From Formosa haliotis (lineage in GTDB: Bacteria > Bacteroidota > Bacteroidia > Flavobacteriales > Flavobacteriaceae), in contig NZ_BDEL01000001.1 of NCBI RefSeq assembly GCF_001685485.1, positions 2,043,501 to 2,107,500 on the forward strand: a stretch of DNA of 64,000 nt, given 5' to 3'. The notes below the pieces were generated by a model. The model saw only the letters and a program-made list of their open reading frames with translations. It did not search any database and had not been told where the DNA came from. Position 1 is the first letter of the stretch. Every line of letters begins with the position of its first letter. Both the position numbers and the translations under genes were made by a program. Shown here in pieces: positions 50,244 through 64,000 of this stretch.

Positions 50244-52565
50244 ATGAATCTACTTCGCCCCCTTAAAAGTCTTATACTTTTCTTTTTTATTTTATTGCCT
50301 TTACTTGAATTACATGCTCAAACTGAAGAAGAGCCCTTAAAAAAGAGGCCCAAAATTGGTGTAGTTTTAAGTGGTGGTGGCGCCAAAGGCATGGCTCATA
50401 TCGGGGTTTTAAAAGCCTTGGAGGAAGCTGGCATTTATCCGGATTATATTACAGGAACCAGTATGGGTAGTATAGTGGGTGGATTATATGCTATAGGCTG
50501 GACACCAGAGAATATTGAGACTATGGCCAATAAAATAGATTGGAATTTTGTGCTATCCAACAATATTTTACTTAATAAAGTAGCCTTCGAAGAAAAAGAC
50601 TTTTACGGCCGATACCTCGCCGAATTTCCTATACGTGGTAAAAAGATAACCCTCCCTCAAGGTGCGATAGAAGGACAGGAATTAACTTTACTGTTAAGCA
50701 AAATTACAAGAGAAGCCCATAGTGTAAAAGATTTTAACGATTTCCCTACCCCGTTTGCTTGTGTTGCCACAAACATAGAAACCGGAGAGCCCGAAATTTT
50801 AAATTCAGGCTCCTTACCCGAAGCCTTAAGAGCGAGTATGTCTATACCGTCTATTTTTACTCCCATGGAAATAGGAGACAAACTTTATGTGGATGGCGGA
50901 TTAACAAGAAACTTTCCTGTTCAAGAGGTTTTAGATATGGGTGCAGATATCGTGATAGGTGTTTTTGTTAGTACAGATTTAAACAAAAAAGACAAGTTAC
51001 AGTCTATGATTTCAGTTTTATCGCAATCGGCTTTTGTGATGAGTGTTCACGACTCCAACAAACAAAAGAAACTTGTAGATATACTTATTGAACCAGAATT
51101 AGGCGATTATTCTACCGGTAGTTTTAAAAACACACCCGAAATTATAGAAATAGGTGATAAAACAGGAGAAAAATATTTACCTGTTTTTAAAAAACTCGCC
51201 GACTCTTTACGTCCGTTTGGTTTACGAAAAAAACCAGAACCCCTTCCTTACAAAGAAAGCTACGACATTAAAGAAATTATTGTAAAAGGCAACGAAAACA
51301 TCCCCATAGATCTTATTTTAGGAAAAATGGATATTCAGCCAAATACAAATATTTCTATAGATGATTTAGAAGAAAAAATTGTGATGCTGTATGGTACGCA
51401 GTATTTTTCTAAAATTGTATATACCATAGAAAACGACAACAAACTTATTTTAAAAGTTAAGGAAGCCCCTAAGGGAGCTGTAAAAATTGCTGGACATTAC
51501 GACTCCGACAACTACGCGAGCTTACTATTTAATCTTACCCTAAGAAATATGTTACTTCCAAATTCCAGGTTTGTTACCGAAATTAATTTCGCTCAGAACC
51601 CCGGTGCACGTTTAAACTATTTGAAATATGTGGGAGAAAAACAAAATCTAGGAATTACCTTGGGTTCTACAATATTTAAATCGGAAGTGCCATCTTACTC
51701 CGATATTAATCACAACAATAATATTGAAATAACTAGAACGGGACTTCTTAACCAATTAACATGGTTTAGCCATATTGGGGTTCAATCAACTTACAATACC
51801 AATCGTTCCGCCGGTGTTTTATTAGGCTATAATTTTGAACGTTTTACTCCAGAAATTACCGATCAAGTCTCTGAAGGCGATGGAAACGAAATTGCCATAG
51901 ACGTTTATAAAAGTAAGGAATTTAATCTTCAGGCTTTTTACACCATAAATACTCTAAATAAATTATACTTTCCTACCAAGGGTATCTTTTTTGATGCTCG
52001 GTTAAATTATTATTTCGGTAGACATTTCGACATTGAAATTGACGAATTTAACGGTGATGGTTTTGATTTAAATTTAACCCCTGAAGCCATCTGGAAAATA
52101 GAAACTAATTTTGGTGGTGCATTAAAATTAACACGAAACCTTACTTACTTAGGAAATGCAAGATTGGTGATGAATAACGGGACTTCGGAATTAGAAAACT
52201 TTTCTCAAAACACCTTTATTGGAGGATTTGCTCCTAGAGGTCTCTATGTGCAACCCTTTTGGGGAATAGATTCTAAATACATTTCGGCATCAAATTTCTT
52301 CTTTGCAGAATCTCAACTTCAATGGAATTTTAAAACTAATTTTTATTTGAATTTTGGAGTCAATTATTTAGACTTAGAAAACCCGATGCAATGGATTAAA
52401 GATGACATTATAATTACCGATGCCGATTATCAAAGACAATTTGGTTTTATGGCTACAGCAAGCTACTTCTCTATAATCGGACCAATTTCAGTGGGAGTTT
52501 CTAAAGGACAACACCATAAAGGTATTCAGGGCTTTATTAGTATTGGATATGCTCCAAAATATTAA
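50244..52565 (+). CDS. Patatin-like phospholipase fused to a POTRA and outer membrane barrel
   Basis: This 773-residue protein has a signal peptide (1-26) and a patatin domain (about 36-310) with the oxyanion loop SGGGAKGMAH, nucleophile Ser73 in GTSMGS and catalytic Asp217 in VDGGL. A POTRA-like segment follows (about 340-415, IKEIIVKGNENIPIDLIL), then a BamA-type barrel (about 425-773). The architecture resembles type Vd autotransporters such as PlpD, in which the barrel displays or exports the lipase. No partner genes are needed. Whether the patatin domain is released is unknown. Confidence 0.93.
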   Translation: MNLLRPLKSLILFFFILLPLLELHAQTEEEPLKKRPKIGVVLSGGGAKGMAHIGVLKALEEAGIYPDYITGTSMGSIVGGLYAIGWTPENIETMANKIDWNFVLSNNILLNKVAFEEKDFYGRYLAEFPIRGKKITLPQGAIEGQELTLLLSKITREAHSVKDFNDFPTPFACVATNIETGEPEILNSGSLPEALRASMSIPSIFTPMEIGDKLYVDGGLTRNFPVQEVLDMGADIVIGVFVSTDLNKKDKLQSMISVLSQSAFVMSVHDSNKQKKLVDILIEPELGDYSTGSFKNTPEIIEIGDKTGEKYLPVFKKLADSLRPFGLRKKPEPLPYKESYDIKEIIVKGNENIPIDLILGKMDIQPNTNISIDDLEEKIVMLYGTQYFSKIVYTIENDNKLILKVKEAPKGAVKIAGHYDSDNYASLLFNLTLRNMLLPNSRFVTEINFAQNPGARLNYLKYVGEKQNLGITLGSTIFKSEVPSYSDINHNNNIEITRTGLLNQLTWFSHIGVQSTYNTNRSAGVLLGYNFERFTPEITDQVSEGDGNEIAIDVYKSKEFNLQAFYTINTLNKLYFPTKGIFFDARLNYYFGRHFDIEIDEFNGDGFDLNLTPEAIWKIETNFGGALKLTRNLTYLGNARLVMNNGTSELENFSQNTFIGGFAPRGLYVQPFWGIDSKYISASNFFFAESQLQWNFKTNFYLNFGVNYLDLENPMQWIKDDIIITDADYQRQFGFMATASYFSIIGPISVGVSKGQHHKGIQGFISIGYAPKY

Positions 52566-52576
52566 ACCCAAACCAT

Positions 52577-53818
52577 TTATGCCAATAAGCGTTTTACAAG
52601 TCTACCTACAGTTAACCCTTGAACTAATATAGAAAACACCACTAGCATATAGGTAATTACCAAAAATAATTCGCGATGCATCTCGGTAGTTAAGCTCAGC
52701 GCTAAAGCTATAGAAATACCACCACGCAATCCGCCCCAAGTCATAATCTTATCGGTTTTTGGCACAAAACCTATTCGTTTTTCGAACATACTAATGGGTC
52801 CGTATAAAGACAGGTATCTACTAATTAAGGCAATTGGAATAGCACATAATCCTGCCAAAATATAGGCCCATTTAAATTCTAAAACCAACATTTCCATACC
52901 TATTAATACAAATAAAATCGTATTCAATAGGATATCGACTAGTTCCCAAAATTTGTCGACATAATTTTCTGTAATTTCAGACATGGCGCTACCTCTTAGT
53001 GTATCATTTCCTACCACAAGTCCCGCAGTTACCATGGCTAAAGGCGAGGATAAATCTAATTTCTGAGCTATCACGGTTCCAGACATTACTGCAGCCAAAG
53101 TTATAATAACTTCAATATCATAATCATCTATAGACTTCATTAACCGGTACGTACCATACCCTAAAAGCAGTCCTAAAATAATACCTCCAATAACCTCTCT
53201 ACCAAATAATTTTAAAACCTGACTAATCTCAAAACCATCCCCTCCGGTCGAATTGGCTATTTGAAAAATAGTTAAAAACACAACTACTCCAACCCCATCA
53301 TTAAACAGAGATTCTCCAACAATTTTGGCTTCCAAATCTTTAGGGACACCCACTTTTTTCAAAATCCCTAATACTGCAATGGGATCTGTAGGGGAGATTA
53401 ATGCCCCAAAAAGCATACAATAAATCAAGTCGACATTCAAACCTAAAAGCATTAAAACACCATACATCATCACGCCTATTAAAAATGTAGAGCCCAAAGT
53501 TCCTAACGTCGCAAATACAAAAACTGGCCAGCGTTGTATTCTTAACTGCTCGAAATTGGTATGTAAAGCTCCCGCAAACAACATAAAACTCAGCATTACA
53601 TCTAACAGTACAGTTTTAAAATCGATTTGGGTAATTAATTTCCTTTCGGCCAATAACAAGGTTTTGTCTATGGTAGCAATACCTAATACAACTAGGGTAA
53701 AAACTAAAGTCACCAACATTAACCCTATGGTATTTGGCAACTTTAAAAATCTCACATTTATATAACCAAAGGCAGCAGAAAGCGTAACCAAGGCCGTAAT
53801 TATTACAAAATAATCCAT
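52577..53818 (-). CDS. CPA1-type cation/proton antiporter
   Basis: The 413 residues form about 12 membrane segments of the Na+/H+ exchanger type. GALISPTDPIAVLGIL carries the conserved TDP of NhaP-type antiporters, ESLFNDGVGVVVF contains the ion-binding FNDG motif and TWGGLRGGISIALALSL the C-terminal family motif. No regulatory RCK tail is present. It likely exchanges sodium or potassium for protons, as expected for a marine bacterium. It is convergent with the patatin gene and divergent from the arsenosugar array. Confidence 0.93.
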   Translation of the reverse strand: MDYFVIITALVTLSAAFGYINVRFLKLPNTIGLMLVTLVFTLVVLGIATIDKTLLLAERKLITQIDFKTVLLDVMLSFMLFAGALHTNFEQLRIQRWPVFVFATLGTLGSTFLIGVMMYGVLMLLGLNVDLIYCMLFGALISPTDPIAVLGILKKVGVPKDLEAKIVGESLFNDGVGVVVFLTIFQIANSTGGDGFEISQVLKLFGREVIGGIILGLLLGYGTYRLMKSIDDYDIEVIITLAAVMSGTVIAQKLDLSSPLAMVTAGLVVGNDTLRGSAMSEITENYVDKFWELVDILLNTILFVLIGMEMLVLEFKWAYILAGLCAIPIALISRYLSLYGPISMFEKRIGFVPKTDKIMTWGGLRGGISIALALSLTTEMHRELFLVITYMLVVFSILVQGLTVGRLVKRLLA

Positions 53819-53917
53819 AGTTCGTATTTAAGTCGAATAAAATAAAACATAATTATACACATTAACAACAACTTAGGAGAATCAATTTAATAATAGTATA
53901 AATTAGCTGTTAATTTT

Positions 53918-53934
53918 AGTCGCACGTCCCGACT
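53918..53934. promoter_or_regulatory. Possible operator upstream of the arsenosugar array
   Basis: An AGTCG...CGACT inverted repeat (7-base spacer) lies 53 bases before the first gene, in a locally GC-richer stretch of an otherwise AT-rich gap. It could be a regulator site. No ArsR gene is in the window, and the match to a known operator cannot be judged. Confidence 0.25.
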
Positions 53935-53986
53935 TAGTCATTTTTAAAAACATTAAATATTTATAACAACACTTATTCAAAATACT

Positions 53987-54322
53987 ATGCAAAAGACCTA
54001 TTACGACCCGGCCGACCTAAAAAAATTCAGTAAAATTTCTGAATGGAATGAAACTTTAGGCGAAAAATTCTTCGATTACTACGGAAAAGTATTCGAAGAA
54101 GGTGCCTTATCAGAAAGAGAAAAATCCTTAATTGCATTAGCCGTTTCTCATACCGTACAGTGTCCATATTGTATTGATGCTTATACTGGAGATGCCTTAC
54201 AACGCGGTATTACCAAGGAAGAAATGATGGAAGCTTTACATGTATCTGCTGCCATTCGCGGAGGCGCATCTTTAGTACATGGTGTGCAAATGATGAATAA
54301 AGTAAATAAATTAGAAATGTAA
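53987..54322 (+). CDS. AhpD-like arsenosugar biosynthesis-associated peroxidase-like protein
   Basis: This 111-residue carboxymuconolactone decarboxylase/AhpD-type protein has the redox pair CPYC in VSHTVQCPYCIDAYTGDALQRG (about residues 58-79), then EEMMEALHVSAAIRGGASLVHG. This small family is typically found next to arsS. A thiol-redox role, perhaps reducing arsenic or a disulfide for it, is a reasonable inference, but no activity is established to my knowledge. It is the first gene of the plus-strand array, 54 bases before arsS. Confidence 0.85.
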   Translation: MQKTYYDPADLKKFSKISEWNETLGEKFFDYYGKVFEEGALSEREKSLIALAVSHTVQCPYCIDAYTGDALQRGITKEEMMEALHVSAAIRGGASLVHGVQMMNKVNKLEM

Positions 54323-54376
54323 GTTTCTAAACTTTGTTCAGTCTAAAACAAAAGCAAATACATTTAACATCTTTTA

Positions 54377-55432
54377 ATGATTCATACTTCTTTACAAAAA
54401 CGCAATAGTGATTTAGCACAAAGTAACCGTCAGTTAGAATTTTTATCGAATGGTATTTTTAAAAACGGAGACTTACCAACATTCAAATCTAAGCTATCTG
54501 AAACCGCTCAATTTCCACTGAAAGCAAAAAAACTAGAGATCTTACAAATCAATGTAGGATACATGTGCAACCAAGTTTGCGCACATTGCCATGTGGATGC
54601 GGGTCCAGACCGAAAAGAAATCATGACGCGAGACACCATGTTACAGTGTTTAGACGTTATAAAAAACACAGGAGCACACACTTTAGATTTAACTGGAGGC
54701 GCTCCAGAGATGAATCCGGATTTTAGATGGTTTGTAGAGGAAGCTGCGAAAGCAGGAATTAAAGATTTTATTGTACGCTCTAATCTCACCATTATTCGTG
54801 CTAATAAAAAGTATCATGATTTGCCCCAGTTTTTTAAAAAACATAATGTACATGTAATAAGTTCGATGCCACATTGGACACAGGGTAAAACCGATAAACA
54901 ACGTGGGGACGGTGTGTTTGCAAAATCCATTCAGGCTTTAAAAGACTTAAACGCCATAGGTTACGGTATACCGGGTAGCGGATTACGATTAGACCTCGTT
55001 TACAATCCGTCGGGTGCTTTTTTACCAGGAAATCAAGATGCTTTACAACGCGATTTTAAAAAGGCTTTACTAGACGATTTCAACATTCAGTTTCACAATC
55101 TATTTGCCATAACCAATTTACCAATAGCTCGGTTTTTAGATTATTTAATTGCTTCTGAAAATTATGAAGATTATATGTACAATCTTGTTGAAGCATATAA
55201 TCCTTCTGCTGTCTCCAATGTTATGTGTACAAATACCTTGTCTGTAAGCTGGGACGGCTATTTATTTGATTGCGATTTTAATCAGATGCTAGAATTGCCA
55301 GTAAACAGCAAAGTGAAACATATTTCTGAATATAACGAAGACCTTCTAGAAAACAGAGAGATTGTGATTTCTCAACATTGTTATGGCTGTACCGCCGGGG
55401 CAGGAAGTAGTTGTCAGGGAAGTGTTATTTAA
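54377..55432 (+). CDS. arsS: Arsenosugar biosynthesis radical SAM protein ArsS
   Basis: The 351 residues show the radical SAM cluster motif CNQVCAHC (CxxxCxxC, near residue 62), DLTGGAPEMNP and a C-terminal domain with several cysteines (SWDGYLFDCDFNQML, CYGCTAGAGSSCQG). Characterised ArsS enzymes link the 5'-deoxyadenosyl group to dimethylarsenic, giving 5'-deoxy-5'-dimethylarsinoyl-adenosine, the first arsenosugar precursor. The methyltransferase ArsM that would make the dimethylarsenic substrate is not in this window. A 240 bp gap without recognisable features follows. Confidence 0.93.
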   Translation: MIHTSLQKRNSDLAQSNRQLEFLSNGIFKNGDLPTFKSKLSETAQFPLKAKKLEILQINVGYMCNQVCAHCHVDAGPDRKEIMTRDTMLQCLDVIKNTGAHTLDLTGGAPEMNPDFRWFVEEAAKAGIKDFIVRSNLTIIRANKKYHDLPQFFKKHNVHVISSMPHWTQGKTDKQRGDGVFAKSIQALKDLNAIGYGIPGSGLRLDLVYNPSGAFLPGNQDALQRDFKKALLDDFNIQFHNLFAITNLPIARFLDYLIASENYEDYMYNLVEAYNPSAVSNVMCTNTLSVSWDGYLFDCDFNQMLELPVNSKVKHISEYNEDLLENREIVISQHCYGCTAGAGSSCQGSVI

Positions 55433-55672
55433 CCAAGCCTGCAACAACACCTTGCTTATTGGATATTGTTTTTTTGAATTTTTACCGAAGACAGAACAGA
55501 ATCAGCAAGAATTAAACATCTTTTTAGAAAATCACTTCTTGTTATAAAACGGGAGGGCTTTCAGTTAAAAAATGATTAAAAAACAATGCGATATCAAGCT
55601 ATTTAATCTCTAGATTGTATTTTTGAGAAGCAGACATTTCGTTCTCTCAATGGATAATAAAAACACAAATTT

Positions 55673-56347
55673 ATGGGACTTCTAAGTTCAAAAGATACGG
55701 GTAGCGATAATGAAGTTGCTTATAACTTTCATTTTCCAACCTCGAAAAAAGCATTAATAATTTTTACTAGAAACCCAGAACTAGGCAAATGTAAAACGCG
55801 TTTAGCTAAAACCATTGGCGACCAAAATGCTTTAGATATTTACAACATCCTATTACAGCATACCGCAAAAATTGCAGCTCCAGTAAAAGCTGATCGTTAT
55901 GTGTTTTACTCTGAAAACATCCAGAATGAAGACCTTTGGGATACGGAACTTTTCAGAAAAAAATTACAATCGGGCAACACTTTAGGCGAACGCATGCAGC
56001 ATGCGTTTTCAGATTTATTTCAGAATTACTACAAGAAAGTGATTATTATTGGTAGCGACATTTTAGATCTTACTACCGAAATGATTGACGAGGCTTTTAA
56101 TCAATTAGAACATCACGATGTTGTTATTGGTCCAGCAAAAGATGGTGGTTATTACCTGTTAGGCATGAAAACTTTAGCGCCTCATATTTTTGAAAACAAA
56201 GCTTGGGGAACAGAAACCGTGCTACAAGACACTCTAAAAGATTTAGAGAACAAATCGGTATCTTTACTTGAAGAATTAAATGATATTGATACTTTTGAAG
56301 ATATAAAAACGTATCCGCAATTAAATAAATTCACGATAAAATCATGA
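55673..56347 (+). CDS. TIGR04282-type arsenosugar biosynthesis glycosyltransferase (DUF2064)
   Basis: The 224 residues form a small GT-A-like nucleotidyl/glycosyl transferase with the N-terminal signature FTRNPELGKCKTRLAKTIGD, IIGSDILDLT and GPAKDGGYYLLGMK. The family was named for its occurrence in arsenosugar clusters, and the substrate is not proven. The stop overlaps the phosphorylase start as ATGA, so the two are translationally coupled, which ties the phosphorylase to this pathway. Confidence 0.9.
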   Translation: MGLLSSKDTGSDNEVAYNFHFPTSKKALIIFTRNPELGKCKTRLAKTIGDQNALDIYNILLQHTAKIAAPVKADRYVFYSENIQNEDLWDTELFRKKLQSGNTLGERMQHAFSDLFQNYYKKVIIIGSDILDLTTEMIDEAFNQLEHHDVVIGPAKDGGYYLLGMKTLAPHIFENKAWGTETVLQDTLKDLENKSVSLLEELNDIDTFEDIKTYPQLNKFTIKS

Positions 56348-57156
56348 TAAAATATATAAACGAAACCACAGAATACTTATTAAATAAAGGCTTCGACAAA
56401 CCAGAAATTGGAATTATTCTTGGAACTGGATTGGGCAAATTATTAGAAGATGTAAACATCATTCACGAAGTTAGCTACAACCACATCCCCTATTTCCCTA
56501 CAGCAACGGTAGAATTTCATAAAGGAAAATTAATTTACGGCGAACTGGAAGGTAAAAAGGTTGTTGTAATGCAAGGCCGTTTTCATTTGTATGAAGGTTA
56601 CTCGCTACAAGATATTACCTACCCGGTTAGAATCATGGAAAAATTAGGCATCCATACCTTATTGGTTTCTAATGCTTCTGGTGCTGTTAATTTAGATTTC
56701 CAAAAAGGCGACTTAATGCTTATAGATGACCACATTAATTTACTTGGTGGATCGCCTTTAGCTTTTAAAGGGGTATCTAAATTGGGCGAACGTTTTGTAG
56801 ATATGAGTGCCCCATACGACAAGGCTATAAATGAAACATTTAAAAGCATTGCCAAAGCAGAAAATATTACCTTAAATACCGGTGTTTATGCCAGTATGCT
56901 AGGGCCACAATTAGAAACCCGTGCAGAATACCGCATGCTTAAAATTCTTGGTGCCGATGCGGTAGGAATGAGTACCGTTCCAGAAATTATTGTTGCCAAT
57001 CATTTAAAATTAAAGGCTGCAGCCGTTTCTGTAATCACAGATCAAGGTGATCCAGATAATTTACATCCGGTAGATATTAACGATATTATAGCGGTAGCCG
57101 AACAAGCAGAACCTAAAATGATTACGCTGTTTAAAGAGCTTATAAAAACCCTTTAA
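56344..57156 (+). CDS. Purine nucleoside phosphorylase, trimeric type
   Basis: The 270 residues fit the class of trimeric PNP: ILGTGLGKL phosphate loop (25-33), QGRFHLYEGY, SNASGAVN, and the base-binding Glu191 (PQLETRAE) and Met209 (GMSTVPE). At the position of human PNP Asn243 it has Asp233 (ITDQGD). Human-enzyme mutagenesis shows that Asp there admits 6-aminopurines such as adenosine. The gene is coupled to the TIGR04282 transferase, so it could split the adenosine-type ArsS product into adenine and an arsenoribose 1-phosphate. Ordinary purine salvage is the alternative. Confidence 0.9.
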   Translation: MIKYINETTEYLLNKGFDKPEIGIILGTGLGKLLEDVNIIHEVSYNHIPYFPTATVEFHKGKLIYGELEGKKVVVMQGRFHLYEGYSLQDITYPVRIMEKLGIHTLLVSNASGAVNLDFQKGDLMLIDDHINLLGGSPLAFKGVSKLGERFVDMSAPYDKAINETFKSIAKAENITLNTGVYASMLGPQLETRAEYRMLKILGADAVGMSTVPEIIVANHLKLKAAAVSVITDQGDPDNLHPVDINDIIAVAEQAEPKMITLFKELIKTL

Positions 57157-57175
57157 CAAGCATTAAAAAATATTA

Positions 57176-57280
57176 ATGAGGCTGTCCGAAAAGTTTAAAA
57201 ATCTATCATTCTGAATACCTATCTTCCAAAAGACATGGCTGTTCAGATTGACGAAAACGCAACATTTTAGGCAGCCTCAT
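57176..57280. repeat. 105 bp element with terminal inverted repeats
   Basis: ATGAGGCTGTCC (left) and its near-complement ending GGCAGCCTCAT (right) bound 105 bases between the phosphorylase and the sterol-desaturase gene. About 15 of the first 20 bases match, and no ORF lies inside. It resembles the small intergenic repeats or MITE-like units scattered in flavobacterial genomes. The ends could also fold as a terminator-like stem. Confidence 0.6.
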
Positions 57281-57317
57281 AAAATTAGTCCGACAACCCA
57301 TTTCAAATTTTTGAATT

Positions 57318-58208
57318 ATGGATAAATACATAGACATTATTCAACGGTCGTATTCGGGCTATTGGCGCTATTTAAAACACGAATTAATTACCGTAAACCA
57401 TTGGGATAATTATTTTTATGGTTTAATCATTATTTCCCTAATTGTTTGGGGCTTAGAAATTGCATTTCCTTGGCGTAAAAATCAGGCTATTTTCAGAAAA
57501 GATTTTTGGTTAGACACCTTTTATATGTTCTTCAATTTTTTTCTTCTGAATTTAATTGTACTCATAGCCTTATCGAATACCGCTGCACAACTTTTTAATG
57601 ATTTCTTGGGCGTTTTCGGGCTAACCCTTCAAAACTTACAACTTTTTGATGTAGACGACTTGCCAAAAGCACTCGGGCTATTCATCTTTTTTATAGTAAG
57701 CGATTTTGTACAATGGAACACACACCGCTTATTACACCACATCCCAATATTGTGGAACTTTCATAAAGTGCATCACTCTGTAAAAGAAATGGGGTTTGCC
57801 GCGCATTTACGCTACCATTGGATGGAGCCTGTTGTTTACAAGTCTTTGCTCTATATTCCTTTAGCGATAATTGGTGGTTTCGACGCACAAGATGTGGCTT
57901 TTGTTCATTTTTTCGCAATTACTATTGGGCATTTAAACCATGCCAACTTAGGTTGGAGTTACGGTCCGTTTAAATACATACTTAACAATCCTAAAATGCA
58001 TATTTGGCACCATGTAAAACACTTACCAAAAGAACACCAATCGGGCATAAACTATGGCATAACCTTAAGTATTTGGGATTATTTGTTTAAAACAAACTAT
58101 ATTCCTCATAACGGAAAAGATATAGAATTAGGGTTTGAAGGTGATGAACATTTTCCGAAACATTTTATGGGTCAGGAATTATATCCTTTAAATAGAAAAG
58201 ATGCGTAA
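57318..58208 (+). CDS. Sterol desaturase / fatty acid hydroxylase family membrane protein
   Basis: The 296 residues contain four or five membrane segments and the histidine clusters of the di-iron hydroxylase superfamily: HRLLHH, HKVHH, HLNHANLGW and HIWHHVKH. Such enzymes hydroxylate or desaturate lipids with O2 and external electrons. The C-terminus overlaps the DUF547 gene by 8 bases, so it belongs to the array. A role on a lipid carrying the arsenosugar is my inference. The substrate is unknown. Confidence 0.9.
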   Translation: MDKYIDIIQRSYSGYWRYLKHELITVNHWDNYFYGLIIISLIVWGLEIAFPWRKNQAIFRKDFWLDTFYMFFNFFLLNLIVLIALSNTAAQLFNDFLGVFGLTLQNLQLFDVDDLPKALGLFIFFIVSDFVQWNTHRLLHHIPILWNFHKVHHSVKEMGFAAHLRYHWMEPVVYKSLLYIPLAIIGGFDAQDVAFVHFFAITIGHLNHANLGWSYGPFKYILNNPKMHIWHHVKHLPKEHQSGINYGITLSIWDYLFKTNYIPHNGKDIELGFEGDEHFPKHFMGQELYPLNRKDA

Positions 58209-58902
58209 ATCTATAGTCGTACTACTTATAATTTTTGGTATTATACCCTCTGTATTTTCACAGCAGGTAAACCATGACATATGGACTACTGTTTTAAAAG
58301 AAAACGTCGATAACAACGGACATGTTAATTACAAAAACTTAAAACAACATCCACAGAATTTAAACACCTATCTCGACCTACTTTCGAAAAGTAATCCAAA
58401 TTCTAGTTGGTCTAAAAATGAAACTTTAGCCTTTTGGATTAACGCTTACAATGCCTTTACCATTAAACTGATTATAGACCATTATCCTATAAGTAGTATT
58501 AAAGATATTAGCAAACCTTGGGATACACCTTTTATCTCTATTAATAACACCTCTTATTCTTTAGGAGACGTAGAACACAATATTTTAAGAACTATAAACA
58601 AACCACAAATTCATTTTGCTATCGTGTGTGCCTCCGTGTCTTGTCCTAAATTATTAAACGAAGCCTACACTGCAACACATTTAAATGCGCAATTAGATAC
58701 TGCAGCGGTAAATTTTATCAATTCAGATAAAAACCAATTAACCGCCGGAACCATTAAACTATCTAAAATTTTTAAATGGTTTTCTAAAGACTTTAAAACC
58801 AAAGGGTCTTTAATTCAGTTTATAAATACTTATGCCAAACATCCTATAAATGCCGATGAACACATAGGATATTTAAGTTACAATTGGGATTTAAATGAGT
58901 AA
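58201..58902 (+). CDS. Exported DUF547 protein
   Basis: The 233 residues start with a signal peptide (about 1-21, SVFSQ) and carry the DUF547 domain: KNETLAFWINAYNAFTIKLI, SLGDVEHNILR, HFAIVCASVSCPKL and a C-terminal LSKIFKWFSKDF. The domain contains a conserved Cys and His suggestive of a papain-like fold, but no activity is known to me. It overlaps both neighbours by 8 bases, so it is translated with the hydroxylase-like protein and the TIGR04283 transferase. Confidence 0.88.
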   Translation: MRKSIVVLLIIFGIIPSVFSQQVNHDIWTTVLKENVDNNGHVNYKNLKQHPQNLNTYLDLLSKSNPNSSWSKNETLAFWINAYNAFTIKLIIDHYPISSIKDISKPWDTPFISINNTSYSLGDVEHNILRTINKPQIHFAIVCASVSCPKLLNEAYTATHLNAQLDTAAVNFINSDKNQLTAGTIKLSKIFKWFSKDFKTKGSLIQFINTYAKHPINADEHIGYLSYNWDLNE

Positions 58903-59596
58903 TATTTCTATAATAATACCCGTTATTAATGAAGCTAAAAATATTCAGAAATTAATACCGTATCTCCTTAACAACACGAATCCAAAAGATATTTGTTCTA
59001 TTATTATTGTTGATGGAGGAAGTACAGATGGTACTCAAAAGGTGGTTAAATCTTTTAAAAACGTTCAACTTGTTATTTCAGAAAAGGGTCGTGCAAAACA
59101 GATGAATTTAGGAGCAAAACACGCCAAAGGAACTATTTTATATTTTCTTCATGCAGATTCTTATCCGCCAAAACACTTCGACAAGGAAATCTTAAATGCT
59201 GTAAAAGATCATTATGAATCAGGATGTTTTAAAATGGCATTTACCAGTCAACATTGGTGGCTAAAATTAGCGGGATGGTTTACCCAATTTAACTGGAAAA
59301 TATCTCGTGGTGGAGATCAGAGTTTATTTGTAAGTCAATCGCTATTCCACTCCCTTGGCGGATTTGACGAAAGCTATAAAATTTACGAAGACAATCATTT
59401 TATTCAAAAACTATACAAAACATCAAACTTTAAGGTCATTCAAAAAACGCTAACCACATCTGCCAGACGATACGAAACTATGGGCATTTGGAAACTTCAA
59501 TACCACTTTTGGATGATTCACCTAAAATACAGATTAGGCGCCTCTCCTGAAACACTTTACAGCTATTATTTGAAGCACATAACTGTTAAAAACTAA
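58895..59596 (+). CDS. TIGR04283-type arsenosugar biosynthesis glycosyltransferase (GT2)
   Basis: This 233-residue GT-A enzyme has an N-terminal IIIPVINEAKNI, nucleotide-sugar site VDGGSTDGTQ, GRAKQMNLGAKHAKG and the metal-binding HADS (in place of DxD), then FYxxDNHF-like IYEDNHFIQKL. The family is named from its place in arsenosugar clusters. Together with the TIGR04282 enzyme it could transfer the arsenoribose or its aglycone. It overlaps DUF547 by 8 bases, and a 75-base gap separates it from the next gene. Confidence 0.9.
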   Translation: MSNISIIIPVINEAKNIQKLIPYLLNNTNPKDICSIIIVDGGSTDGTQKVVKSFKNVQLVISEKGRAKQMNLGAKHAKGTILYFLHADSYPPKHFDKEILNAVKDHYESGCFKMAFTSQHWWLKLAGWFTQFNWKISRGGDQSLFVSQSLFHSLGGFDESYKIYEDNHFIQKLYKTSNFKVIQKTLTTSARRYETMGIWKLQYHFWMIHLKYRLGASPETLYSYYLKHITVKN

Positions 59597-59671
59597 TAAA
59601 TTTTACTTAATTAATTTATAAAGTACATTTATGATTTGGTGTAATATTCTACTTTCACAAAAACTACCAAC

Positions 59672-61210
59672 ATGAAGCACCTTTACCTTTTCTCCCTAAT
59701 TCTGTTCTGTATATTTTCAAAATCTGTTGTTGCTCAAACCGAAATTCACGCCAGAGTAATCGACTCTATAACACAAGCTCCAATTGCATACGCTACAGTT
59801 TCGTTTAATAATACTTCCGGCGTAATTAGTAACGATGTCGGGCAATTTCAGCTTCAAATTAACACGCCAATCACAGAACAAGACTCCCTGTTTTTTAGTT
59901 GCTTAGGATTTGAATCGAAACAGTTCTCTGCCAAAACATTTCAAGACAGTCTAGTAGTTTTAAAACCAAAATCTATTGAATTAAACGAAGTGATGTTGTT
60001 CAATAAAAATTATACTGTCGATGAAATTATGGACAAGGTAGAAGAGCAACTCGATAAAAACTATACGGCAAGCTTCGAAAAAAGCAAACTCTTTTTTAGA
60101 GAGACTTACGAGTCTACCATCCTTAAAAAATCGGTAAAAATTAAAGAATCGACCATTCCTGAATTTAATCAGGAATTAACCGATAGTATTTTAAGAGATG
60201 TGCCTATAAACTCATATCATTACACCGAGATTTTAGGTGAATTATATAAGAACAAAACCGATAATTCTGCAGACACCATAACCAAATTAGATATTATAAA
60301 AGCCTCTGAATTATATGACAAAAATAATGAAATGACCTTCGAGGCTTACGAGAAGCAACTAAACGATATTGTTAAAAAACGGGTTAAACGCGATTCGTAT
60401 TTCAAAATTAAATCGGGTTGGTTTGGCACCACCCAAGATATAGATTCTACAGTTTTTCAAGACCATTCTAACACAAAATCTGAAGCTTATATAGAGGCCG
60501 AAAAGAAAAAAGAAGCGGAAAAGAAAAAGAATTTTTTAAAATACAGAAAACGTGTTATTCACAATCTTGAGAAAAATAGTTTTGTAAATAAAGACTCTTA
60601 CTTAAATTTTATTCACAAGTCTAATCGATACGAATTTGAGTTGCTTGATTATTCATTTTTAAATGATCAATACGTGTATAAAATTGCGTTTAAACCTAAA
60701 CGAAAAGAAGATTACAAAGGCGTTTTATACATAAACACAGATGATTTTGCCATAATTAGAGTCGATTTTTCGAACGTAAAATCACTAAAAACATTTAAAC
60801 TTTTAGGTGTTTCATTCGACGTGTATTTAAGAAAAGGAAGCTTAATTTACGCTAAAAACAAGGCGAATACCTATAGCTTAAAATATGCCGAAATTGAAGG
60901 TGCAAACAAAACAGGAATAGACCGTCCGCTTAAAATAATAGAAAAAAACAAACATGTTAAAGGCCGTAGAAAACAAAATGAACTTTCTGCCGATATTCAT
61001 TTTATTGCCACCAATCGTTCTAAAAAAGAAATGGTTGTATTTGAAAACGAAACCATAACCGAAGCCGACTTTAATGCCTTTACAGAGAAAGCCGACATTA
61101 AACCTATTTATCAACCCGCTTACGATCCTGAATTCTGGAAAGGATATAATATTATAGAACCAAATAAAGCCATTAAAGATTTTAAGAGTATCGATTCAGA
61201 CCAAGACTAG
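59672..61210 (+). CDS. Exported protein with carboxypeptidase-regulatory-like N-terminal domain
   Basis: The 512 residues have a signal peptide (about 1-22) and a CarboxypepD_reg-like beta domain (about 24-110, VIDSITQAPIAYATVSFNNT). The long C-terminal region is rich in Lys, Asp and Glu, with alternating strands and helices but no recognised fold. Such domains often sit on Bacteroidetes surface or TonB-linked proteins, yet no barrel is visible. It follows the arsenosugar transferase on the same strand, with enough spacing to have its own promoter. Linkage to arsenic chemistry is uncertain. Confidence 0.82.
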   Translation: MKHLYLFSLILFCIFSKSVVAQTEIHARVIDSITQAPIAYATVSFNNTSGVISNDVGQFQLQINTPITEQDSLFFSCLGFESKQFSAKTFQDSLVVLKPKSIELNEVMLFNKNYTVDEIMDKVEEQLDKNYTASFEKSKLFFRETYESTILKKSVKIKESTIPEFNQELTDSILRDVPINSYHYTEILGELYKNKTDNSADTITKLDIIKASELYDKNNEMTFEAYEKQLNDIVKKRVKRDSYFKIKSGWFGTTQDIDSTVFQDHSNTKSEAYIEAEKKKEAEKKKNFLKYRKRVIHNLEKNSFVNKDSYLNFIHKSNRYEFELLDYSFLNDQYVYKIAFKPKRKEDYKGVLYINTDDFAIIRVDFSNVKSLKTFKLLGVSFDVYLRKGSLIYAKNKANTYSLKYAEIEGANKTGIDRPLKIIEKNKHVKGRRKQNELSADIHFIATNRSKKEMVVFENETITEADFNAFTEKADIKPIYQPAYDPEFWKGYNIIEPNKAIKDFKSIDSDQD

Positions 61211-61411
61211 AGTAAATTGAACATGGCCTATATTTAAATGCTTCCACTTTTTTTCAAGAGGAAGCTTACCCCTATTCTGTTAAAAATAAGCTAGAAAGCA
61301 GATGAAACCCCTGATTTACCAAATTGATTATGCTTAAATTTAAATAAAATTGAGGGTTTTGCATTAAGTTTTCATCTATTGATGCGACATAATTATAAAT
61401 ACATTAAATCT

Positions 61412-62710
61412 ATGGAGCATATTGTAATTATTGGCAATGGTATATCTGGCGTCACTTTGGCACGTCATATTAGAAAACTATCTGACAAGAAAATCACAAT
61501 TATTTCCGCTGAAACAAAATACTTTTTCTCCCGTACCGCATTAATGTATGTGTATATGGGACATATGAAATTTGAACACACCCAACCCTACGAAAACTGG
61601 TTTTGGGAAAAGAACCGCATAGATTTAATACAAGAAACGGTTACTGCAATACATCCTGAAAGTAAAGAACTGCTGTTTAATAACAACACCACTCTTAATT
61701 ACGATAAACTCGTTATCGCCACAGGTAGCAAACCCAACAAGTTTGGATGGCCCGGACAAGATTTAAAAGGTGTTCTAGGCATGTACCATAAACAAGATTT
61801 AGACTTGCTAGAACAACTGGCACCAAACAATTCGGTGTGTAAACGAGCTGTTATCGTGGGAGGCGGACTTATAGGTATTGAACTTGCAGAAATGCTCTCG
61901 ACTAGAGATATTCCCGTAACCTTCTTGGTAAGAGAGTCTAGTTTCTGGGGCAATGTACTTCCTAAAGAGGATAGCGAATTAATTAATAAACATATTACAT
62001 CGCACCACATTGACTTAAGATTATCATCAAACTTAAAGGAAATTATTTCTGATGATTCGGGACGTGTAAAATCGATTATCATTGAAGAAACGGGAGAAGA
62101 GATTCCTTGTAATATTGTGGGACTTACAGCTGGTGTCTCTCCAAATATTGCGTTTTTAAAAGATAGTGGCATAGAGACCAATCGCGGGGTTTTGGTAAAC
62201 AAAGAGTTACAAACTAACATAAAAGACATTTATGCTATTGGCGATTGTGCCGAACAACTCCAGGCCATTGGCGAACGTCGACCAATAGAAGCGGTTTGGT
62301 ATACCGGCCGGATGATGGGAGAAACCCTAGCCCAAACCTTATGCGGAAATACCATGCCGTACAATCCGGGACATTGGTTTAATTCTGCTAAATTTTTCGA
62401 TATAGAATATCAAACTTATGGTTGGGTGTATGCAACCCCGAAACCGAAGAACACGCATTTTCACTGGCAGCATAACGACAATACAAAATGTATTACTATT
62501 GAATATGAACTTGAAACAGGAATCTTTAAAGGCATAAACACCTTTGGCATACGAATGCGTCACGACGTTTTCGATCGTTGGCTTACCGAAAATGCCACGG
62601 TTAATTATGTGATAGATCACTTAAAAGAAGCCAACTTCGACCCTGAATTTTATAAATCTTTTGAAAAAGATATTCAATCTACTTTCAAACAACAAACAGT
62701 AAGCTTATGA
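61412..62710 (+). CDS. FAD-dependent pyridine nucleotide-disulfide-type oxidoreductase
   Basis: I place the start at 61412 (MEHIVIIGNG, 432 residues), since the in-frame TTG at 61379 would add 11 residues before the FAD loop. The FAD-binding GNGISG is at the N-terminus, the NAD(P)-binding GGGLIGIELAE near 160 and the second FAD motif YAIGDCAE near 285. This is the fold of rubredoxin, ferredoxin and nitrite reductase-type enzymes. The stop overlaps the start of the 4Fe-4S membrane protein, so the two likely form an electron-transfer pair. Confidence 0.9.
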   Translation: MEHIVIIGNGISGVTLARHIRKLSDKKITIISAETKYFFSRTALMYVYMGHMKFEHTQPYENWFWEKNRIDLIQETVTAIHPESKELLFNNNTTLNYDKLVIATGSKPNKFGWPGQDLKGVLGMYHKQDLDLLEQLAPNNSVCKRAVIVGGGLIGIELAEMLSTRDIPVTFLVRESSFWGNVLPKEDSELINKHITSHHIDLRLSSNLKEIISDDSGRVKSIIIEETGEEIPCNIVGLTAGVSPNIAFLKDSGIETNRGVLVNKELQTNIKDIYAIGDCAEQLQAIGERRPIEAVWYTGRMMGETLAQTLCGNTMPYNPGHWFNSAKFFDIEYQTYGWVYATPKPKNTHFHWQHNDNTKCITIEYELETGIFKGINTFGIRMRHDVFDRWLTENATVNYVIDHLKEANFDPEFYKSFEKDIQSTFKQQTVSL

Positions 62711-64000
62711 GTCTTAAATTAAATAAAAGCATGTCGCTTTCTTCGCCAGATGCCGCCGATCTAAATACCAAACAAAAAATAGGTACGGCAATTGGTATGG
62801 TTGGGCTGTTTATTTTTGTACTCGCTATTTTTAACATTACCCTACCTCATCCTACTTTAGTTTTAATCGCAGGATTGGGCTTAATTACTTTGGGTGTTGT
62901 GGTCTTTACTCAAGGGAGTTATGCCCACAAACAACCAGGAATAAAAAATGATGCTGTTTGGTTTAAATCTATTAGTTCGCGTGGTTTCTGGGGCTGGATT
63001 ACAGGAGTAGCCCTTACTGGTTTTTACATCATCTTATACTTTTACCCGCATTTACTCGGGCTCGGAGCTAAAGGTGAACCCAACACCGGCCTTATCGCGG
63101 TTTTCGACCCTTTAAGTAGAGCCCTCAGCGGAAACCCTGCCAGTCAATGGTTTGTTTACGGAACCTTTTATACACTAGCCATAGTTGTATTCGGATATAA
63201 ATTTTTAAAAAAATATCGTCATAATAGGTACGAACAATTACGAACCTTTTCGGTGATGTTCTTTCAATTAGCCTTTGCTTTTTTTATTCCAGAGCTCATG
63301 GCTCGATTAAATTCTGATACCTTTCATTTGCCATACTACGATTTAAAAAACATGTGGCCCTTAAATTATTATAATTTTGAACAGTATCGGGTTAACGATT
63401 TTATTAATGCAGGGACCGTGGGGTTGGCTTTACTTCTCTTCGGAATTATCTCCATTTTTGTCATTTCGCCAATTTTAACCTACAAATACGGGAAACGTTG
63501 GTATTGTTCTTGGGTTTGTGGTTGCGGTGGCTTAGCCGAAACTGCTGGTGACTCTTTTAGACAGTTAAGTAACAAAAGTCTGAAAGCCTGGAAACTAGAA
63601 CAATGGTTGGTACATACTGTTTTAGTTTTTGTGGTAATAATGACCACCGCTGTCATTTTTACGTATTTAGGCTACGACCCAAATAAATATTGGTTAACAC
63701 GCGATGTATTTCTTGCCTTAGTCGGTGGATTTTTAACCCTTATATTCTCATTAACCATGATTTTTAAACGTCATGAGTTAGGTAAAGATGCCAAATACGG
63801 GGCTATAGGCTATTTTACAGTTATTGTAGTTTTAATTGCCATGTATTATTTTGGAGGCACAGATAAATTATTCTTTTTTAAAGCTGAAACACTGCGCTCT
63901 ACATACGGATTTTTAATAGGATCTATCTTTTCTGGTGTTATTGGCACAGGGTTTTATCCCATTTTAGGAAATCGCGTTTGGTGTCGTTTTGGTTGTCCTA
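62707..64000 (+). CDS. Membrane-bound 4Fe-4S protein, 3' end beyond the window
   Basis: An open frame runs from ATG 62707 to the window end without a stop (431 codons). It shows several membrane segments and paired cysteine motifs: Cys267, Cys271 and Cys273 in CSWVCGCGG, then Cys426 and Cys430 in WCRFGCP. The latter is typical of NapH/CcoG-type ferredoxin-like membrane proteins, so more cysteines should follow. It is coupled to the FAD oxidoreductase by a 4-base overlap. It might pass electrons to the hydroxylase-like or redox enzymes of the array, but that is inference. Confidence 0.88.
   Translation, partial: MSLKLNKSMSLSSPDAADLNTKQKIGTAIGMVGLFIFVLAIFNITLPHPTLVLIAGLGLITLGVVVFTQGSYAHKQPGIKNDAVWFKSISSRGFWGWITGVALTGFYIILYFYPHLLGLGAKGEPNTGLIAVFDPLSRALSGNPASQWFVYGTFYTLAIVVFGYKFLKKYRHNRYEQLRTFSVMFFQLAFAFFIPELMARLNSDTFHLPYYDLKNMWPLNYYNFEQYRVNDFINAGTVGLALLLFGIISIFVISPILTYKYGKRWYCSWVCGCGGLAETAGDSFRQLSNKSLKAWKLEQWLVHTVLVFVVIMTTAVIFTYLGYDPNKYWLTRDVFLALVGGFLTLIFSLTMIFKRHELGKDAKYGAIGYFTVIVVLIAMYYFGGTDKLFFFKAETLRSTYGFLIGSIFSGVIGTGFYPILGNRVWCRFGCP

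Follow-up and report, generated by a model that had tools for sequence, protein, structure and literature searches.

A gene array around arsS in Formosa haliotis as a candidate operon for the finishing of arsenosugars

This study concerns a ten-gene array around the radical SAM gene arsS in a 64,000-nucleotide stretch of the Formosa haliotis genome (contig NZ_BDEL01000001.1, positions 2,043,501 to 2,107,500; hereafter the window). On balance, we lean slightly towards reading the array as an arsenosugar-finishing operon, in which the product of ArsS would pass to a purine nucleoside phosphorylase (PNP), then to a TIGR04282 protein and finally to the glycosyltransferase TIGR04283. To our knowledge, it is not settled how the ArsS product is converted into the arsenosugars of seaweed and seafood. 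If the reading is correct, the array fills a gap in how these compounds are made, namely the removal of the base, the activation of the sugar and its attachment. The neighbourhood evidence assigns one candidate enzyme to each of these missing steps, together with a fitting overall stereochemistry. PNP is probably the key new step, one that was missed in the initial annotation made from the DNA letters alone. The extension of the row to a pathway is partly supported, and the proposed route from phosphorylase to nucleotidylyltransferase to glycosyltransferase is the most useful new point.

All ten open reading frames of the row listed in the initial annotation were confirmed on the plus strand, by their positions and by family or domain matches for each of them:

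53987..54322, plus strand: AhpD-like, peroxidase-like protein of family TIGR04169 (191.8 bits, cut-off 120), with a CPYC motif.
54377..55432, plus strand: ArsS, radical SAM protein of family TIGR04167 (435.5 bits, cut-off 300), in which CNQVCAHC provides the CxxxCxxC motif.
55673..56347, plus strand: TIGR04282/DUF2064 protein (220.9 bits, cut-off 134) with a KCKTRL motif, proposed arsenoribose-1-phosphate nucleotidylyltransferase.
56344..57156, plus strand: PNP of family NF006054 (335 bits, cut-off 218), proposed to carry out phosphorolysis of dimethylarsinoyl-adenosine.
57318..58208, plus strand: membrane protein of the fatty-acid hydroxylase superfamily (PF04116 FA_hydroxylase, 89.3 bits, gathering score 31), with the histidine boxes HRLLHH, HKVHH and HIWHH.
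58201..58902, plus strand: DUF547 protein (PF04784, 98 bits) with a probable signal peptide, judged by eye.
58895..59596, plus strand: TIGR04283 GT2-type glycosyltransferase (248 bits, cut-off 182).
59672..61210, plus strand: CarbopepD_reg_2 protein (PF13715, 37.1 bits) with a probable signal peptide, judged by eye; loosely linked.
61379..62710, plus strand: FAD/NAD(P) oxidoreductase (PF07992; start TTG 61379 or ATG 61412), candidate for reductant supply; loosely linked.
62707..64000 (end of the window), plus strand: 4Fe-4S membrane protein (PF12801 Fer4_5 and C-terminal ferredoxin-type domains); loosely linked.

Neighbouring genes overlap at four of the nine junctions (TIGR04282/PNP, hydroxylase/DUF547, DUF547/TIGR04283 and FAD/Fer4). 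At the remaining five they are separated by 54 to 240 bases, and the earlier description of many overlapping genes was therefore somewhat strong.

In the proposed pathway, ArsM, whose gene was identified elsewhere in the genome, would methylate arsenite to dimethylarsinous acid. ArsS would couple a 5'-deoxyadenosyl radical to the arsenic and form 5'-deoxy-5'-dimethylarsinoyl-adenosine, a reaction established for other ArsS enzymes. Phosphorolysis by PNP would then yield adenine and alpha-5-deoxy-5-dimethylarsinoyl-ribose-1-phosphate, which TIGR04282, judging from its fold and motif, could convert into a nucleoside diphosphate (NDP) sugar. Finally, the GT2 enzyme TIGR04283 would attach the sugar, with inversion, to an acceptor of glycerol type or to a lipid. 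The expected beta-riboside is consistent with known arsenosugars, which have the beta configuration. The remaining genes might conceivably assist: the AhpD, FAD and 4Fe-4S proteins might hold the arsenic in its trivalent state, give electrons to ArsS, or both, and the hydroxylase and DUF547 might work on the membrane-side product. A broader proposal is more tentative and, in our judgement, somewhat doubtful: the array could exemplify a new route to a sugar donor, in which a phosphorylase splits a radical-built nucleoside, a CofC-like enzyme turns the resulting 1-phosphate into an NDP-furanose and a GT2 enzyme transfers the sugar, with an arsenic-free version in arsS-less relatives and with PNP and MTAP recruited independently.

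The conservation of the row was assessed in 149 genomes of the same family as that of the window, representing 148 genera. ArsS was found above its cut-off in 111 of them, which suggests that common flavobacteria, beyond algae and cyanobacteria, may make arsenosugars. TIGR04283 is present in 96 of the 111 genomes with arsS and in just 5 of the 38 without it (split counted by eye). We read 61 of the 111 arsS loci, each over up to 20 kb. This sample was non-random and consisted of the locus of the window, 20 mostly high-scoring loci on long contigs, 20 chosen for canonical ArsM or for having no recognised methyltransferase, the 4 remaining with neither methyltransferase and 16 with NF038099 close to arsS; the linkage counts are biased upward for NF038099 and its neighbours. 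Labels were given by profiles built from proteins of the window and its neighbours, with thresholds of our own choosing. AhpD was found in 58 of the 61 loci, TIGR04282 in 56, PNP in 51, DUF547 in 41, TIGR04283 and a rhodanese-like gene in 39 each, NF038099 in 32, the hydroxylase in 24, FAD in 18, Fer4 in 14, the gene labelled GT2a in 11 and the CarbopepD protein in 10.

Protein clustering of the first 41 loci gave clusters for ArsS in 41, TIGR04282/DUF2064 in 37, PNP in 33, DUF547 in 25, TIGR04283 in 23 and the hydroxylase in 17, whereas the commonest unlabelled flanking cluster was present in 12. FAD (11), GT2a (10) and Fer4 (9) did not exceed this flanking level in the sample. FAD and Fer4 were contiguous with arsS on the same strand in just 3 of the 41 loci, and opposite-strand genes often separate them from the core of the array. 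The neighbourhood comparison thus did not refute the linkage to arsS of PNP, DUF547 and the hydroxylase, which the initial annotation had regarded as extensions of the arsenosugar pathway, and most of the added genes do belong with arsS. Its inclusion of the FAD/Fer4 pair is more weakly supported, as these genes are no commoner than the most frequent flanking cluster unrelated to the array. FAD, Fer4 and the hydroxylase make up a looser layer of the array. Two unnamed gene clusters recur in its vicinity, one in 12 and one in 11 of the 41 loci (L042 575-1639; L044 15090-15821).

PNP is present in all 111 genomes with arsS and in 22 of the 38 without it, and in 92 of the 111 it begins no more than 20 kb from arsS. 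The PNP of the window belongs to the same superfamily as MTAP and scores below the cut-off of the MTAP family TIGR01694 (101.8 against 274.85 bits). In human PNP, His257 contacts the 5'-hydroxyl group. Dimethylarsinoyl-adenosine, like methylthioadenosine, has no 5'-hydroxyl and carries a bulky group in its place. Human PNP favours 6-oxopurines, and replacement of Asn243 by Asp enables calf and human PNP to use adenosine, according to PMC6274182; a PNP double mutant is described in PMC2799393. In the PNP of the window, Asp and Ile occupy human positions 243 and 257, respectively. Asp was found at position 243 in every readable PNP row, and position 257 was Ile or Val in all 53 rows of same-family genomes with arsS that were readable at both sites (3 of 56 were unreadable) and Ile or Leu in the six PNPs beside arsS in a set drawn from many phyla. 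This pair of residues, Asp where the base is contacted and a hydrophobic residue where the 5'-hydroxyl would lie, is shared with MTAP and class I PNPs, and differs in its setting in that the proposed substrate here carries dimethylarsenic rather than methylthio. The pair permits the phosphorolysis step and is not diagnostic of it. A dedicated arsenic PNP paralog was rejected because of the single copy of NF006054 found in nearly every genome (two were listed for G033 only) and of the same residues in PNPs from genomes without arsS.

With regard to TIGR04282, the family match of the initial annotation was retained, and the protein is better read as a putative CofC-like nucleotidylyltransferase than as a glycosyltransferase. 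Its predicted structure (mean pLDDT 91.1) is closest to 3cgx, followed by CofC/FbiD-type and 3-phosphoglycerate guanylyltransferases. It has the nucleotidylyltransferase fold and a K-x-K-T-R-L loop, which we take to be typical of CofC; this assignment concerns fold and motif alone. The likeness to the CofC/FbiD 2-phospholactate/phosphoenolpyruvate guanylyltransferases and to the 3-phosphoglycerate guanylyltransferases thus comprises the fold, the loop and a weak match to the CofC family TIGR03552, whereas the score is below the cut-off of that family (39.2 against 105 bits) and the proposed substrate is another one. In one of the few open-licence papers that mention TIGR04282, the name fbiD is used for it. 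A second, diverged DUF2064 protein was observed beside ArsS in L069 (10477-11160), which lacks the K-x-K-T-R-L loop and scores 101.5 against the TIGR04282 cut-off of 134.

The array also shows links to the sources of methylarsenic and arsenate. NF038099, named 'arsenosugar biosynthesis arsenite methyltransferase ArsM', occurs in 85 of the 111 genomes with arsS and in none of the 38 without it. It usually adjoins PNP in the relatives, the two lying within 2 kb of each other in 82 of the 85 genomes. The genome of the window lacks NF038099 and encodes a canonical ArsM (NF008823, 366.1 bits, cut-off 263) at G000:C1:977374-978177, about 1.1 Mb from the array and next to an ArsR-like gene (by eye). 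Across genomes with arsS, NF038099 and canonical ArsM tend to be mutually exclusive: the latter is found in 12 of 26 genomes without NF038099 and in 3 of 85 with it (Fisher p 7e-7, kinship ignored). A strict swap between the two was rejected, as the association of counts ignores kinship and a test of independent pairs on the poorly resolved ArsS tree of the 61 loci was not significant (four pairs on well-supported branches, median p 0.5).

A module of SusC, a sodium-solute symporter and a metallophosphoesterase was found in 8 of 14 loci with neither methyltransferase (L069, L072-L075, L077, L255, L258), in 4 of 36 loci with NF038099 and in 1 of 11 with ArsM only (L067, L262, L265, L270 and L271 together). 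These counts, which ignore kinship, are no more than suggestive of a replacement of methylation by the import of ready-made methylarsenic. Phosphate transporters, which also carry arsenate, lie inside some arrays (Pst in L040; PiT in L042, L066 and L162), and several loci of Nitrospira type or from Proteobacteria have PiT or Pst genes next to arsS. In most genomes, the row is thus connected with arsenic by its linkage to methyltransferases and phosphate transporters. The Pst genes of L040 (2429-5840) and the PiT gene of L042 (5482-6612) separate the methyltransferase of the array from its hydroxylase.

Outside the family, 40 loci were hand-picked from other Bacteroidota with arsS, and ArsS was called in 39 of them. 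AhpD was present in 28, TIGR04282 in 21, TIGR04283 in 15, DUF547 in 8, Fer4 in 6, and FAD and GT2a in 5 each. The hydroxylase was not found near arsS in any of the 40, weak matches below threshold in L119, L124 and L145 being uncounted. Gene order varies, as in L118 with FAD-Fer4-AhpD-ArsS-GT2a, and descent of one frozen block is therefore an incomplete account. The set from many phyla comprised the best 80 of 586 arsS matches, many of them on draft contigs of metagenome-assembled genomes (MAGs) with flanks below 10 kb; it was labelled on all frames, since calling of the longest frames failed in loci of high G+C content. AhpD was found in 55 of these 80 loci. The nucleoside phosphorylases near arsS were six PNPs and three MTAPs, all within 4.5 kb; their location within the central 9 kb is the sole internal control for this set, and one of the nine loci (L254) is from Flavobacterium. 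Among 55 plasmid records matching ArsS, five arsS loci were read and MTAP was present in two, from Cupriavidus and Acinetobacter.

In Proteobacteria, too, the hydroxylase and DUF547 are repeatedly neighbours of arsS. The Acinetobacter plasmid L173 carries arsS, a TVP38/FAD fusion, DUF547, TIGR04283, TIGR04282, a methyltransferase and a phosphate transporter, followed on the opposite strand by mtnP and a gene of the sterol-desaturase family, which is much the same parts list as in the window, in another phylum. The name of this plasmid record mentions NDM-1. In the Bdellovibrionaceae MAG L252, ArsS, MTAP and a fusion of TIGR04283 and TIGR04282 (11756-13165, 469 amino acids) are consecutive, only 14 bases and 1 base apart. 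A protein database search with this fusion gave at least 23 proteins including the query; 22 have 400 to 489 amino acids, and at least 11 of the 23 list both a GT2 domain and DUF2064.

Several observations weigh against the finishing operon. PNP was found near arsS in none of the 40 loci of other Bacteroidota at the thresholds used, and a phosphorylase in only 9 of the 80 loci from many phyla. In 14 genomes with arsS, neither methyltransferase exceeded its threshold. Of 14 PNPs from genomes without arsS (the neighbourhoods of PNP were read in 14 of the 22 such genomes that carry it), 13 likewise have the pair of Asp and a hydrophobic residue, as does the solved PNP 4lna. Moreover, five genomes without arsS (G001, G018, G037, G104 and G129; loci L147, L148, L153, L156 and L157) keep the cassette rhodanese-TIGR04282-PNP-TIGR04283, with DUF547 in three (G001, G018 and G104) and, in G104, with FAD-Fer4-GT2a-GT2b downstream as well. 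Either arsS was lost from these cassettes, as is hinted by a short open reading frame in G018 (G018:C7:79733-79903) that matches only the C-terminus of ArsS, or the cassette has a non-arsenic use of its own. The latter would suit a general pathway from nucleosides of the adenosine or 5'-deoxyadenosine type to ribosides, formed by TIGR04282, PNP, sometimes DUF547, and TIGR04283, which ArsS joined in many lineages. The retained cassettes, which speak against arsenic specificity, and the shared residue class favour such a pathway; we nevertheless consider it improbable, given the rarity of TIGR04283 in genomes without arsS and the remnant in G018.

It is equally unlikely, in our view, that PNP is a co-transcribed housekeeping enzyme of purine salvage, with another nucleosidase freeing the arsenoribose and TIGR04282 and TIGR04283 acting later. 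The single NF006054 copy of nearly every genome would fit such a role, as would the 9 of 14 genomes without arsS whose PNP has no adjoining TIGR04282 and the two further PF01048 proteins encoded elsewhere in the genome of the window. In contrast, the close linkage of PNP to NF038099 argues for a connection with arsenic, and MTAP, a different family, occupies its position close to arsS in Bdellovibrionaceae, Rhodospirillales, Gemmatimonadales, Acinetobacter and Cupriavidus. A single pathway that uses the whole ten-gene row and ends in an arsenosugar lipid, as the initial annotation had suggested, is less improbable than these two and still rather unlikely. It draws on the hydroxylase found within 10 kb of arsS, in loci with TIGR04283, in Acinetobacter, Thiodictyon, two Pedobacter and a Myxococcaceae MAG, on the FAD, Fer4, GT2a, GT2b and GT-C-type genes that adjoin AhpD-ArsS in Cesiribacter (L185), and on the fact that algae and lake biota are known to contain arsenosugar phospholipids and isoprenoid arsenosugars, according to PMC7345539. 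Nevertheless, the same-family counts of the hydroxylase, FAD and Fer4 make none of them obligatory, and the FAD/Fer4 pair is often split from the core and was found in just 1 of the 80 loci from many phyla.

The arsenosugar-finishing reading leaves room for a lipid-side role of the hydroxylase, which is plausible because arsenosugar phospholipids and isoprenoid arsenosugars are known; a lipid as the end product of the array is unproved. The hydroxylase shares its locus with TIGR04283 in 22 of 24 same-family cases. It resembles the ornithine lipid hydroxylase OlsE (NF052566) over residues 116-294, but its score of 91.5 bits is far below the cut-off of 475. A sequence search at E 1 gave no solved relative for the hydroxylase or DUF547. 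DUF547 has a confidently predicted structure (mean pLDDT 91.6) and invariant His and Cys residues in 31 aligned relatives, and comparison of the model with solved folds gave no confident match. The nearest named relatives of DUF547 include Formosa, and they suggest Flavobacteriaceae as the family to which the window belongs. Some loci of Bacteroidota, Proteobacteria and Cyanobacteria have an FAD oxidoreductase of some kind near arsS, and besides the single FAD gene, the set from many phyla contains two TVP38/FAD and four MerA-like genes. That this oxidoreductase supplies reductant is a guess that fits.

The nearest known system is the ArsM-ArsS arsenosugar pathway of Synechocystis sp. PCC 6803, reportedly the work of Xue et al. 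in 2019 and Cheng et al. in 2021. It is mentioned in PMC8552651 and PMC12159101. The genome of the window shares with it an ArsS of the equivalog family and an ArsM, both above their cut-offs, and differs in that ArsM is unlinked and that a phosphorylase, a CofC-like enzyme, a hydroxylase, DUF547 and redox genes stand in the row. Among the arsenosugar-associated NCBIfam families TIGR04169, TIGR04167, TIGR04282, TIGR04283 and NF038099, the first four are matched above their cut-offs by proteins of the window; their names state an association and not a phosphorylase mechanism. In the open-licence literature, nothing was found for arsenosugar together with methylthioadenosine, the papers found for arsenosugar together with phosphorylase were, by title, reviews and human or plant studies, and no title among the papers found deals with steps after the ArsS product.

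The genome is a single 4.3 Mb contig, and the array continues beyond the end of the window. A search of Rfam at gathering score over 52500-64000 gave no match. Upstream of the array, a cation/proton antiporter-like gene (named by eye) lies on the opposite strand. The 4Fe-4S gene, which is truncated by the window, encodes 532 amino acids and ends at about 64305; it is followed by a GT2 gene resembling polyprenyl-phosphate-sugar synthases, a large GT2 gene and a meaB-like gene (the last by eye).

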